A stretch of DNA of 64,000 bases, taken from NCBI GenBank assembly GCA_020809425.1, contig JAGGDC010000001.1, positions 1,873,001 through 1,937,000 on the forward strand, read 5' to 3'. This DNA is from Candidatus Synoicihabitans palmerolidicus. GTDB lineage: Bacteria > Verrucomicrobiota > Verrucomicrobiia > Opitutales > Opitutaceae. The notes below the pieces were generated by a model. The model saw only the letters and a list, made by a program, of their open reading frames with translations, had not been told where the DNA came from and did not search any database. The position numbers and the translations under genes are program-made. Every line of letters begins with the position of its first letter. Position 1 is the first letter of the stretch. Below, piece after piece: positions 3,001-7,756 of the stretch.

Positions 3001-3467
3001 CATGAGATGCTCTACGCTCATACTTCTCTCGCGCGCATCCAAATCGATGTCTACTTCAAGCCACTCGCCCAAACCATCATTCGCAGTTTCCCCAACGCCA
3101 GTTCGGGGATTACGCTGGAGGGAAATATCGCCCCCCTTGCCCTCTTGCCCGATGTCACCATTCCGCTCGGCCTCATTGTCAACGAACTCCTGACCAATGC
3201 CTGCAAACACGGTCTGGCGACCCAGTCCGAGCTCACTCTCACCCTCTCAGTGAGCAACTGGCGTCAGGAGGAATCACTCTCCTATTCTCCGACAACGGAC
3301 CGGGCATGCCTGCCGATTTCGATCCGACTCAAACCAAATCCCTGGGTTTCCGACTGGTCAACCTCCTGTGCAAACAACTCCGCGCCAATCTCCAGACCCC
3401 TTCCGCCGGAGGGACCGCCCGGTACGAGTTACATCTCCCGCCCGATAAATCCGATTCTCTCTCATGA
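1..3467 (+). pseudogene. Multi-PAS sensor histidine kinase (HisKA_2/HWE-like), disrupted
   Basis: Frame 1 is open from base 1 through about 1050, with PAS motifs (NAILQNARTAIIVTDLEGLITLFNPAAEDLVGYS). Repeated PAS blocks (RFRTLAEVLPVGIFE) follow, then LREVHHRVKNNLQLVTSLLNLQ. Frame breaks near 1030, 1690, 2275 and 3260; in-frame stops at 1401 (TGATAA) and 1618 (CGC TGA ATA CAC). Confidence 0.85.
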
Positions 3468-3632
3468 ACGCCTCCATTCGCATTCTTGTCGTCGAAGACG
3501 AAGCCATCCTCGCAGAAGATCTACGCGAAACCCTCGAGCGACAATCCTACCGCGTCCTGGATATCGCCGACAATGCCGACGATGCTTGTGCACTCGTCCG
3601 CGCCCTGCAGCCCGATCTTGTCATGATGGACA
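3464..3632 (+). pseudogene. Response regulator receiver domain, 3'-truncated
   Basis: MNASIRILVVEDEAILAEDLRETLERQSYRVLDIADNADDACALVRALQPDLVMMDN, then abrupt loss of homology at the group II intron 3' end. ATGA overlap with the kinase stop. Confidence 0.85.
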
Positions 3633-3654
3633 ATCGGGTAGGCGGAGGGATCCA

Positions 3655-4839
3655 GTGTGCTGAGAGTTAATTAACTATACCGAATGAAGGGATGCGGCGG
3701 TGCGGGCGCGTTGGGTTTTCTCCAGGATGGCGGAGCCTTCGGCCTTCCAAGTGTAGCGGGTGGGTTCGAGGTCGCGTGCGGCCATGTAGGTTTCGATGGC
3801 GTTGGTGAGGTCTCGAACGCTGGTGAAGCTGCCATCGCGGATACAATCGACGGTGAGGTCGCGAAAGAAGCGCTCCACTAGATTCAACCAGGAAGAGGAT
3901 GTTGCAGTGCAGTGCAGTGCGATGCGCTCGACGCCATGGGCTTTAGCATGGCGCTGATTGCGCCACTTTATCCAGCTCTTCACTTTGGCGTGCTTGTGGG
4001 TGGCGTAGTTGTCGATGATCAGATGCAGGACCAAGCCGTCGGGTGCCTGCGCATCGATGTGCTTGAGGAAACCGAGCCATTCGCGGTGGGTATGCCGAGA
4101 GGCGGTGCGTCGCATGATTTTGCCGTCCAGATAGCCGAGGGCGGCGAATAGCGTGACCGTGCCGTGGCGGGTGTAATCGTGGGTGGCGGTTTTGATGTGC
4201 CCGATACCCAATGGCAGGCCCGGCTGGGTGCGCTCAAGCGCCTGGCACTGGCTTTTCTCGTCGCAACACAGCACCAAGGCCCGATCGGGCGGATTCAGAT
4301 ACAAGCCGATGACATCCCAAAACTTGGCCTCGAAGTTCCGGTCACGCGACAACTTGAACGTGCGTCGCAAATGGGGCTTCAGGTCGTTGGCCCGCCACAG
4401 ACGCTGCACGGTGTGGGCCGACACCCCCTTGGCCTTGGCCATCGCCCGTGAGGACCAGCGGGTGCGCCCGGCCGGGGGTTGCGTGACCTCAGTGACGATC
4501 TGCGCGCGAATCGCCACATCCACACTCGGCTTCCGGCCCGAACGTCTCGCTTCGGCCAATCCAGCCAACCCTGCCTCCCGAAATCGCTTTTCCCACTTCG
4601 CCACCACCGGACGATTCACTCCGATCTGAGCAGCCACCGTCTCCTGGCTTTTCCCTTCGGCCCGCAACAACACGATGCGCGCCCGCCTGACCTCCCGTTG
4701 CGGCGTGGTCGGGCGTTTGATCATCTGTTCAAGTTCTTGATGCTGCGCGGCATCAATGATTAGCGGATTAACAGGGCGGGCCATGCACCCATCCTGCACT
4801 ACTATTTTTGTTTTGTATAGCTAATTAACTCCACTACAC
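3655..4839 (-). mobile_element. IS630-family insertion sequence, copy 1 (intact)
   Basis: Terminal inverted repeats GTGTGCTGAGAGTTAATTAACTATAC / GTGTAGTGGAGTTAATTAGCTATAC around a complete transposase. TA on the right flank, CA on the left. Confidence 0.9.
3675..4799 (-). CDS. IS630-family transposase
   Basis: 374 aa ORF; N-terminal HTH (TPQREVRRARIVLLRAEGKSQETVAAQIGVNRPVVAKWEKRFRE) and DDE core ending SSSWLNLVERFFRDLTVDCIRDGSF. Confidence 0.95.
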   Translation of the reverse strand: MQDGCMARPVNPLIIDAAQHQELEQMIKRPTTPQREVRRARIVLLRAEGKSQETVAAQIGVNRPVVAKWEKRFREAGLAGLAEARRSGRKPSVDVAIRAQIVTEVTQPPAGRTRWSSRAMAKAKGVSAHTVQRLWRANDLKPHLRRTFKLSRDRNFEAKFWDVIGLYLNPPDRALVLCCDEKSQCQALERTQPGLPLGIGHIKTATHDYTRHGTVTLFAALGYLDGKIMRRTASRHTHREWLGFLKHIDAQAPDGLVLHLIIDNYATHKHAKVKSWIKWRNQRHAKAHGVERIALHCTATSSSWLNLVERFFRDLTVDCIRDGSFTSVRDLTNAIETYMAARDLEPTRYTWKAEGSAILEKTQRARTAASLHSV

Positions 4840-5533
4840 TAGCCTCCGCCCTCCCCACCACCCGGCATGCGGGTCCGCACCGGGCGGTTCCGAAACGCTA
4901 TCGGACCGTAGTTGGATAGAACCGAATCACCTACTTGGCAGCTGGGCCCTTCGGTTGAGTTTGAGAAACCCGTTTCGCACCGACTACCCGATACACCGGT
5001 CGGTGTCGGAGGGTGGATCGAGCAAACGGACTCGCGCTCATCATTTTGGTTCGGGCCTTCGTCACAGTTGAGACCTCCAGTTCATTCGTCGGACGGGTAA
5101 CCCGTCGGCGACTACTCCCGGCTCGTTTCCCGTGACTACTATGCCTTCTGCTGACTCCTCTGTTTCCTCCGTCGTCGTTACCGACGCGGCTGCTCCCCGT
5201 CATAGACGGGACGCGGGGCGCAGAGGCCTCCCCGGATAATGGCATCAACTTCACTCGCACGAGCGCACCGTCTACCCTACATCCTGTACCACAGGACTTC
5301 GTCATGTGGTGGTGACTCGTCCCGGATGCTAAGCCTATTACCATGTTTCTGTTCGTCGCCCCACGAGTTTGCCTGCGGCTTCTTTCAGACCCAGCCTCAC
5401 GGCTACGCCCTTGCCCTCGGCTAGGGCTTTTATTTATCTGACTTTCCTGTCGGTATTTCATTTATTTGGTTCCATGCACAGAGGACTTAAACCTCATCAG
5501 TTGATGCCCATTCCGAGCATACTCCAGTCGCCG

Positions 5534-5578
5534 CAGACAAGGGCGGCAAACCGCCGCGTCTGAGCTCAACCGTTAGGC
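5534..5578 (+). other. Partial integron attC-like site (3' half: hairpin plus CGTTAGGC core)
   Basis: CAGACAAGGGCGGCAAACCGCCGCGTCTGAGCTCAACCGTTAGGC: hairpin CAGAC..GGCGG CAAA CCGCC..GTCTG, then a GTTRRRY-type core followed 4 nt later by an ORF start. The opposite R''/L'' half is replaced by the intron. Confidence 0.45.
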
Positions 5579-5582
5579 ATCC

Positions 5583-5714
5583 ATGATTGCGGACATCCTT
5601 GCAGGCTTCCTCTTCTTCTCGATGGTTCCACTCATGATTGGCTACTTCGGCACGGGAGTTTGGATGATGTCTGAGACCAAGATCGATACGGAGTTATTCG
5701 GTGAGAGTGGGATG
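5583..5714 (+). pseudogene. Cassette-like small ORF, truncated by IS3 insertion
   Basis: MIADILAGFLFFSMVPLMIGYFGTGVWMMSETKIDTELFGESGM read from ATG 5583; runs into the IS3 end at 5715. Not in the supplied ORF track. Confidence 0.45.
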
Positions 5715-7048
5715 CTGAGGTGGACCCATGAAGTTGGACAGGAAGGATGATTAAATCCCAAAGGAGTCCAATATGTCGAAGAAACGACGTGCCTTCAGTG
5801 CCGAGTTCACAGCGAAAGTAGGGCTCGAAGCCCTCAAGGGAATCGAGCCGATCCACGTAATCGCGCAGCGTCACGAGGTGCATCCGGTGCAAGTGAGTCA
5901 GTGGAAGAAGGAGGTGTCCGAGCGGTTGCCGGAGGTCTTCGCGAAGCCCTCGGCGCAGGTGCGCGACGAGATCGAGCGGAATCGCAAAGAGAAGGAACTG
6001 TATGCGCGGATCGGGCAGCTGCAGATGGAGCGCGAGTGGCTCAAAAAAAAGTTGGCGCATGTGGGGAGTAAGGAGCGCCGCAGCATGATCGAAACCGAGC
6101 ATCCGAAGCTGAGTGTGGCCCGGCAGTGCGAACTGTTGGAGCTGCCACGCTCAACCTACTACCACCACCCGAAGCCACCGAAGGAAGCGGACCTGGCGTT
6201 GATGAAACAGATCGACGAGAGCTACCTCGAGTCACCGTTCTTTGGTAGCCGCCAAATGACCCGTTGGTTGCAACGCGAAGGACACGTGGTGAACCGTAAA
6301 CGGGTGCGACGATTGATGCGATTAATGGGACTCACGGCGATCTATCAAAAACCGAGTCTGTCAAAGAAAGCGGCCTCTCATCAGATCTACCCGTATCTGC
6401 TGCGAACGCTGAAGGTTGAAAGGTCGAGTCAAGTGTGGGCAACAGATATCACCTACATCCCGGTGTGCGGTGGCTTCGTTTACCTGTGTGCGGTGATCGA
6501 CTGGCACTCGCGGATGGTGCTCGCATGGGAACTGTCCAACACGCTCGATGCGTCGTTTTGCGTGCGAGCGGTGCAGTGCGCGATGGCGATTTACGGCAAG
6601 CCGGAGATCTTCAACCCCGACCAAGGCTGCCAGTTTACCAGCGCCGAGTTCACCCAGCCATTGTTGGCCGCCGGCGTGCGACTGTCGATGGACGGCAAAG
6701 GACGGTGCTTGGACAATGTCTTGGTCGAACGCCTGTGGCGCAGCGTCAAATACGAGGAAGTCTATCTGAAACGCTATGAGACGATGGTCGAGGCCCATGC
6801 CAACTTGGAGACCTACTTGCTGTTCTACCACGACCGACGACCGCATTCCGCCCACGGCCGCCAAACACCATCCGAGGTCTACCACGCACAACTCGACCAA
6901 GCCGCCGCCTGACGGCGGCTATCCGAGCGGGGAGGAAGCCGAGCTTCCTCCCCTGCACCCCTCCATTATCTTTTATTCTTGGTCAGAAAAACCAGAAACC
7001 ATAACTATAAATCCGCCCGACCTGTCCAACCGACGGGGTCCACCTCAG
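5715..7048 (+). mobile_element. IS3-family insertion sequence
   Basis: Inverted repeats CTGAGGTGGACCCATGAAGTTGGACAGG (left) and CTGAGGTGGACCCCGTCGGTTGGACAGG (right, reverse complement) bracket the transposase. Confidence 0.92.
5773..6912 (+). CDS. IS3-family transposase, OrfA and OrfB in one frame
   Basis: 379 aa: HTH_Tnp_1-like N-terminus (RRAFSAEFTAKVGLEALKG) continuous with rve integrase core (WATDITYIPVCGGFVYLCAVIDWHSRMVLAW...DQGCQFTS...). Confidence 0.95.
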   Translation: MSKKRRAFSAEFTAKVGLEALKGIEPIHVIAQRHEVHPVQVSQWKKEVSERLPEVFAKPSAQVRDEIERNRKEKELYARIGQLQMEREWLKKKLAHVGSKERRSMIETEHPKLSVARQCELLELPRSTYYHHPKPPKEADLALMKQIDESYLESPFFGSRQMTRWLQREGHVVNRKRVRRLMRLMGLTAIYQKPSLSKKAASHQIYPYLLRTLKVERSSQVWATDITYIPVCGGFVYLCAVIDWHSRMVLAWELSNTLDASFCVRAVQCAMAIYGKPEIFNPDQGCQFTSAEFTQPLLAAGVRLSMDGKGRCLDNVLVERLWRSVKYEEVYLKRYETMVEAHANLETYLLFYHDRRPHSAHGRQTPSEVYHAQLDQAAA

Positions 7049-7751
7049 TCGCGTGACCGGAACTTCGAGGCCAAGTTTTGGGATGTCATCGGCTTGTATC
7101 TGAATCCGTCCGATCGGGCCTTGGTGCTATGTTGCGACGAGAAAAGCCAGTGCCAGGCGCTTGAGCGCACCCAGCCGGGCCTGCCATTGGGTATCGGGCA
7201 CATCAAAATCGCCACCCACGATTACACCCGCCACGGCACGGTCACGCTATTCGCCGTCCTCGGCTATCTGGACGGCAAAATCATGCGACGCACCGCCTCT
7301 CGGCATACCCACCGCGAATGGCTCGGTTTCCTCCAGCACATCGATGCGCAGGCACCCGACGGCTTGGTCCTGCATCTGATCATCGACAACTACGCCACCC
7401 ACAAGCACGCCAAAGTGAAGAGCTGGATAAAGTGGCGCAATCAGCGCCATGCCAAAGCCCATGGCCTCGAGCGCATCGCACTGCACTGCACCACTGCACT
7501 CCAACATCCTCTTCCTGGTTGAATCTAGTGGAGCGCTTCTTCCGCGACCTCACCGTCGATTGTATCCGCGATGGCAGCTTCACCAGCGTTCGAGACCTCA
7601 CCAACGCCATCGAAACCTACATGGCCGCACGCGACCTCGAACCCACCCGCTACACTTGGAAGGCCGAAGGCTCCGCCATCCTGGAGACAATCCAACGCGC
7701 CCGCACCGCCGCATCCCTTCATTCAGTATAGTGCATTAACTCTCAACACAC
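7049..7751 (+). pseudogene. IS630-family remnant, copy 3 (3' part only)
   Basis: SRDRNFEAKFWDVIGLYLNPSDRALVLCCDEKSQ... nearly identical to copies 1 and 2. 5' part missing at the IS3 junction; internal frameshift near 7490; right end ..CTCAACACAC|TA. Confidence 0.92.
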
Positions 7752-7756
7752 TAGCG

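Follow-up and report, generated by a model that had tools for sequence, protein, structure and literature searches.

How does an intron that encodes no reverse transcriptase (RT) come to lie behind an attC site, and what copied it there? The question is raised by the window analysed here, a stretch of 64,000 nucleotides from Candidatus Synoicihabitans palmerolidicus. The original prediction had described in it a group IIC intron lacking an RT ORF and preceded by an attC-like 5' exon, and had taken it for a maturase-less derivative that could depend on a maturase acting in trans.

A class C intron without RT ORF

Positions 5522 to 3633 of the minus strand are a class C (IIC) group II intron without RT ORF, 1890 bp long with its insert and about 703 nt long without the IS630 element, as had been anticipated. 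We looked for an RT ORF inside the intron and found none, so the element does not qualify as an autonomous retroelement with its own RT or maturase. It comprises the following parts:

3633 to 5522, minus strand: ORF-less group IIC intron GTATG...CCTACCCGAT (ends common to sister copies, Rfam matches, covariation)
5241 to 5406, minus strand: D1 core, RF02001 (group-II-D1D4-3; Rfam, 118 bits, E 1.4e-23)
5107 to 5192, minus strand: D1-D4 segment, RF01998 (group-II-D1D4-1; Rfam, 38.2 bits, gathering cut-off 35)
5307 to 5310, minus strand: candidate EBS1 (ACCA) in a conserved D1 terminal loop (complementarity to IBS1)
4857 to 4888, minus strand: Domain 5 with CGC triad (D5 alignment of 24 class C introns, nearly all paired)
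4842 to 4856, minus strand: D5-D6 linker and 5' strand of D6 (alignment with uninterrupted copies)
3633 to 3652, minus strand: 3' strand of D6, with the bulged branch-point A at 3639 and the 3' splice site

The two Rfam matches bear out the group IIC features that had been read in D1-D4, and the alignment with 24 class C introns does the same for the canonical D5 and for the D6, which ends with TACCCGAT. Covarying D1-D4 and D5-D6 helices, a 3' AY and a bulged A in D6 are all present, as expected of a group II intron. The predicted extent, 3633-5534, was right at its 3' end; its 5' end has to be moved from 5534 to 5522, a first base that is fixed by the ends common to the sister copies and by the exact restoration of host genes. 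Complete copies begin with GTATG, a slight departure from the usual GTGYG, and have the same 3' end as the window intron, single changes being rare among sisters. Furthermore, an ORF-bearing homologue in a congeneric genome (G003) has exactly the same span and is 81% identical. The check proposed originally with Rfam Intron_gpII gave a match to the uninterrupted sister L015 (44.6 bits); sisters L013 and L018 fell below the cut-off, and there was no match in the window, where D6 is split by IS630.

Identification of EBS1 and IBS1, also proposed originally, gave a candidate pairing. The putative EBS1, ACCA, is complementary to the IBS1 TGGT of attC-inserted relatives and pairs with three of the four bases of the window exon TGGA; the -1 base of IBS1 (A) is mismatched in the window copy, L013 and L015. 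Another reading of EBS1, AUCCGG, was dropped, those bases being paired in the consensus fold.

Covariation of the ribozyme

The 5' part of twelve related introns gave 119 consensus pairs, 52 of which show double changes in at least one sequence. Between the ORF-less and the ORF-bearing group of this genome, 27 of the 119 pairs differ: 19 by double compensatory changes, seven on one side with pairing kept, and one that is broken. Slid controls, in which the partner was shifted by 1-3 columns, gave 0-3 double compensatory and 26-34 broken pairs; the consensus structure comes from the same alignment and is somewhat favoured over the slid versions, and the contrast is still large. Moreover, 11 of 26 D5-D6 pairs are double compensatory when 24 related class C introns are aligned, of which this genome contributes ten. 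The persistence of pairing at 26 of the 27 differing positions indicates that the ORF-less lineage went on evolving under ribozyme structural constraint. A lack of compensatory base pairing, which the original prediction had named as grounds for giving it up, is therefore contradicted by the 19 double changes.

Insertion sequences in and beside the intron

Two insertion sequences lie in and beside the intron:

about 3655 to 4839, minus strand: IS630-family element in the D6 loop (Pfam DDE_3/HTH, inverted ends, ends matching other copies)
5716 to 7047, plus strand: IS3-family element with its transposase at 5773-6912 (Pfam rve/HTH_21, ends as in L012)

The IS630 insert measures 1.19 kb and carries its transposase (4799-3675) on the intron strand. 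Its target is a CTAG in the D6 loop, the right TA duplicate of which now reads TG; other copies of the element in the genome have identical ends and are also located at CTAG. A second IS630 fragment (7048-7752) abuts the right end of the IS3 element and has no matching left part, an arrangement that would have been produced by an IS-mediated deletion or rearrangement.

The attC site and the lineage of the intron

The exons and the neighbouring cassette are arranged as follows:

5523 to 5579, minus strand: 5' exon, the bottom strand of an attC site, with IBS1 TGGA at its end (model R1)
5583 to 5715, plus strand: start of a cassette ORF directly after attC (MIADILAGFLFF...), interrupted by IS3 (sequence reading)
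3464 to 3632, plus strand: 3' exon, the initial 56 codons of a response-regulator/histidine-kinase gene, which breaks off at the intron boundary (remainder flanks L016)

What had been called attC-like is a true attC: a covariance model (R1) that was derived from 14 attC sites in the congeneric genome G002, and did not include the window site, matches 5579-5515 of the minus strand with 52.1 bits (E 1.8e-13); neither the window nor the rest of the genome has another good match. A Pfam search with the cassette ORF start gave no match. The intron is inserted into the bottom strand of attC at its core, as are IIC-attC introns; its 3' exon is half of a response-regulator gene instead of the remaining attC core. 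Therefore, we file the window copy as a member of the IIC-attC lineage and not as an intact IIC-attC insertion. The lineage itself is assigned from its relatives: the 5' exons of RT-bearing ones in G003, G020 and L029 end with TTGGT or CTGGT, and the 3' exons of many class C relatives start with T followed by a stretch that looks like the attC core, for example AGGC or GGGC.

Integron integrases scored above the cut-off in several congeneric genomes. The sole integrase seen in this genome is a fragmentary, integron-integrase-like gene broken by stop codons (G000:C3:250428-250992, L126). Two contigs of G002 (C47, L113; C19, L114) carry arrays of about 15 very similar attC sites; no integron integrase above the cut-off was found in that genome, and the arrays are possibly an integrase-less cluster.

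An amplified family and its RT-bearing relatives

Twelve D1 matches were found in the genome: seven ORF-less ones including the window copy, four with an RT (intact or former) and a twelfth that scored 34 bits. The maturase-less derivative is indeed ORF-less and, as had not been foreseen, belongs to an amplified family with at least six further ORF-less sisters. These at least seven copies are 96-97% identical over the parts that they have kept and are dispersed at unrelated sites, with identical ends and unrelated flanks. All complete ones share one ORF deletion, flanked on either side by what is left of the RT, MNWRSQL* at the former start and the C-terminal YPTTVR* before D5; therefore, the loss of the ORF preceded the dispersal. 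This order of events bears on whether the ORF-less copies are immobile fossils, which moved with their own RT before losing the ORF or were duplicated at the DNA level. Fossils might look like the window copy and several others, which carry IS insertions or are truncated. However, the common deletion places the loss before the spread, DNA duplication would not yield exact ends between differing flanks, and the structure has been kept, so we regard fossils as highly improbable.

The search for a IIC maturase and for RT-bearing relatives with the same ends, suggested with the original prediction, was successful. Four relatives, about 76% identical to the ORF-less copies, encode a GsI-IIC-like RT, and three of these ORFs are open. 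The GsI-IIC RT is their best solved relative (479 bits; LtrA scores 130 and the T. elongatus maturase 118). YADD is present, and RVT_1 and GIIM are the only domains; the resident RTs therefore have no endonuclease domain, as expected of a lineage with a class C RT. Their dN/dS relative to G003 is about 0.17. Hence the genome combines an amplified ORF-less family with a related RT, as trans-mobilised introns do, and the three open maturase ORFs of the same lineage support the possible dependence in trans that had been put forward. Among 223 genomes of the order, this one included, no ORF-less copies were found beyond this genome, and the only other match was the ORF-bearing intron of G003. A search of plasmid DNA for the intron returned short conserved pieces only.

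Intron fragments beyond the D1 matches were also found (L121-L125). Two of them (L124:1555-1640 and L125:1949-2040) are 3' ends of class C introns with a different D6, with a decayed RT near L125; they represent a third, perhaps older, intron type in this genome.

Divergence between the two groups is uneven. D5-D6 is 94% identical between them, and sliding identity reaches 96-98% in alignment columns 1-40 and 121-160 and 51-85% elsewhere, as if some intron parts had been constrained or exchanged. The two near-identical blocks (window about 5522-5480 and 5410-5370), at which G003 differs, suggest either gene conversion or an RT contact common to both groups. In the middle of D1-D3, about one position in four differs between the groups; therefore, recognition by the resident RT is not certain. 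In the maximum-likelihood tree, the ORF-less clade (100/100) lies outside the ORF-bearing clade of this genome and G003 (95.7/92), and tips are similarly short and star-like in both groups. Active, self-splicing ORF-less copies might thus have been spread by a different RT, now lost or unassembled: in D1-D3 they fall outside the group of the resident RT introns and G003, only 70% of the genome is assembled, and other decayed class C remnants exist (L124, L125). However, the first 40 columns and D5-D6 closely match the resident RT introns and the tip lengths of both families suggest bursts of similar age, which makes a different RT unlikely.

Probable copying in trans

Trans-mobilisation by the resident IIC maturase would best explain these observations. 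We consider it very probable that the window intron is a non-autonomous member of the IIC-attC lineage that lost its ORF, kept its ribozyme and was copied, most likely in trans, by a resident RT, the window copy having later received IS630 and a foreign 3' exon. An ancestor would have lost most of the RT ORF from D4, and the shortened ribozyme would have evolved further under structural constraint. The ORF-less intron would then have been copied to many sites, its RNA splicing and then reverse-splicing into single-stranded DNA, presumably with the help in trans of the RT/maturase that the resident ORF-bearing relatives encode. One copy would have inserted at the attC core, bottom strand; IS630 would have entered its D6 loop, and recombination with an ORF-bearing copy in a response-regulator gene may have given it its foreign 3' exon. 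The window copy has probably reached a dead end, and the uninterrupted sisters are likely to be the active ones.

Targets outside attC

Several family members sit in protein genes, beyond attC, which the original prediction did not include. Joining the flanks restores reading frames, all antisense, at L011 (MISSHRDFLV), L009 (GFVIQGGQPMRMLIRGVGPQL), the ORF-less copy L015 (EDFIIQADNPYLHGMFQSERY) and L017, and exact empty sites are present in sister species. The uninterrupted ORF-less copy L018 (G000:C1:2226680-2227382) lies in sense orientation within a protein gene, which we take to resemble BNR/GH74 proteins, and the exon junction would restore its reading frame. The ortholog in G002 is continuous across this junction (68% identity, 1107-aa open frame); the host gene is frameshifted in this assembly, where sequence errors are possible.

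The upstream stem-loop is strong in the attC copy, L009, L012, L016 and L017 and weak in L011, L013, L015 and L018. The mean of the 60-nt upstream exons lies below background (P about 0.005; about 0.09 for 80 nt). A strict need for a stem-loop at every target is not supported, hairpins being weak at several sites.

A chimeric copy

The remainder of the response-regulator gene forms the 5' exon of intron copy L016 on contig C3. In G003 and G001, both gene parts lie in one frame with exactly one codon between them, the codon split by the intron. Once the two parts are joined, the receiver domain matches PF00072 from end to end. In addition, the D6 remnant to the right of IS630 and the CTAG at which that element inserted resemble those of the ORF-bearing type, the type that adjoins the other half of the gene at L016, a resemblance resting on few bases. 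The simplest reading would be that an ORF-less copy located in attC recombined with an ORF-bearing one located in the response regulator to give the window copy.

The joining of attC to genes by IIC-attC introns has been proposed as a source of new cassettes, in a model that PMC7923331 gives in summary, and the plus-strand order here (gene part, intron, attC) is that of the proposed route. We therefore suggest, tentatively and as the less probable case, that the window copy arose by natural recombination in the way in which integron cassettes have been proposed to originate and, at the same time, that it was driven by a SINE-like IIC lineage, non-autonomous and long-lived, part of which has left attC sites for protein genes. 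The exchange of flanks could be an artefact, given an assembly that is 70% complete with frameshifts in at least one host gene. The junction would then have been misassembled at a repeat, the real 3' exon being the other half of attC. The introns and IS630 (36 matches to its end sequence) are indeed repeats, and L010 has an attC-core-like 3' exon (TGGAC) and no 5' exon. However, contig C1 (2.3 Mb) spans many intron and IS copies, suggesting long reads, and the intron type to the right of IS630 is the one beside the other gene half; such a misassembly thus seems possible and on balance rather doubtful. It would concern the window copy only, and is compatible with copying in trans as well as with the other alternatives.

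Relation to known introns and significance

Like IIC-attC introns such as S.ma.I2 (PMC7923331, PMC8876359), the family has a class C RT (here in sisters), inserts into the bottom strand at the attC core and opposite to cassette transcription, and has the attC hairpin upstream of the insertion point. Unlike them, the window intron has no RT ORF, family members also lie inside protein genes, and IBS1 is mostly TGGA, not TTGT or TGGT.

ORF-less trans-mobilised introns are already known in other classes. For instance, the ORF-less TeI3 introns of Thermosynechococcus elongatus are mobilised by TeI4 maturases (PMC2882425). They share with the present family one ancestral ORF deletion, RT remnants on both sides and an amplified ORF-less family beside ORF-bearing drivers, which are candidates here; the differences are class C, a target of the attC lineage and an activity that is predicted here. 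According to a review (PMC4424553), ORF-less introns occur rarely in bacteria and almost never without a related RT intron. The same co-occurrence is seen here (PMC4424553, PMC8919778), with an ORF-less lineage that outnumbers the resident RT introns and differs from them by about 24% in D1-D4. In the openly accessible literature searched, we found no description of an ORF-less IIC-attC family. Two further ORF-less class C introns were seen in other genomes. A Desulfobulbaceae MAG has one that follows an attC-like exon and apparently lacks part of D1 (L050:4442-4923); the other, in a Planctomycetaceae MAG, immediately precedes an intron with an RT (L061:67-907).

The fullest documentation of trans-mobilised ORF-less introns comes from a thermophilic cyanobacterium. 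A IIC family that offers many ORF-less copies, candidate drivers in the same genome, empty sites and one sense copy would allow a direct test of splicing with a IIC maturase supplied in trans. Moreover, the chimera of attC and gene, if real, would be a concrete specimen of how IIC-attC introns may help to build gene cassettes.
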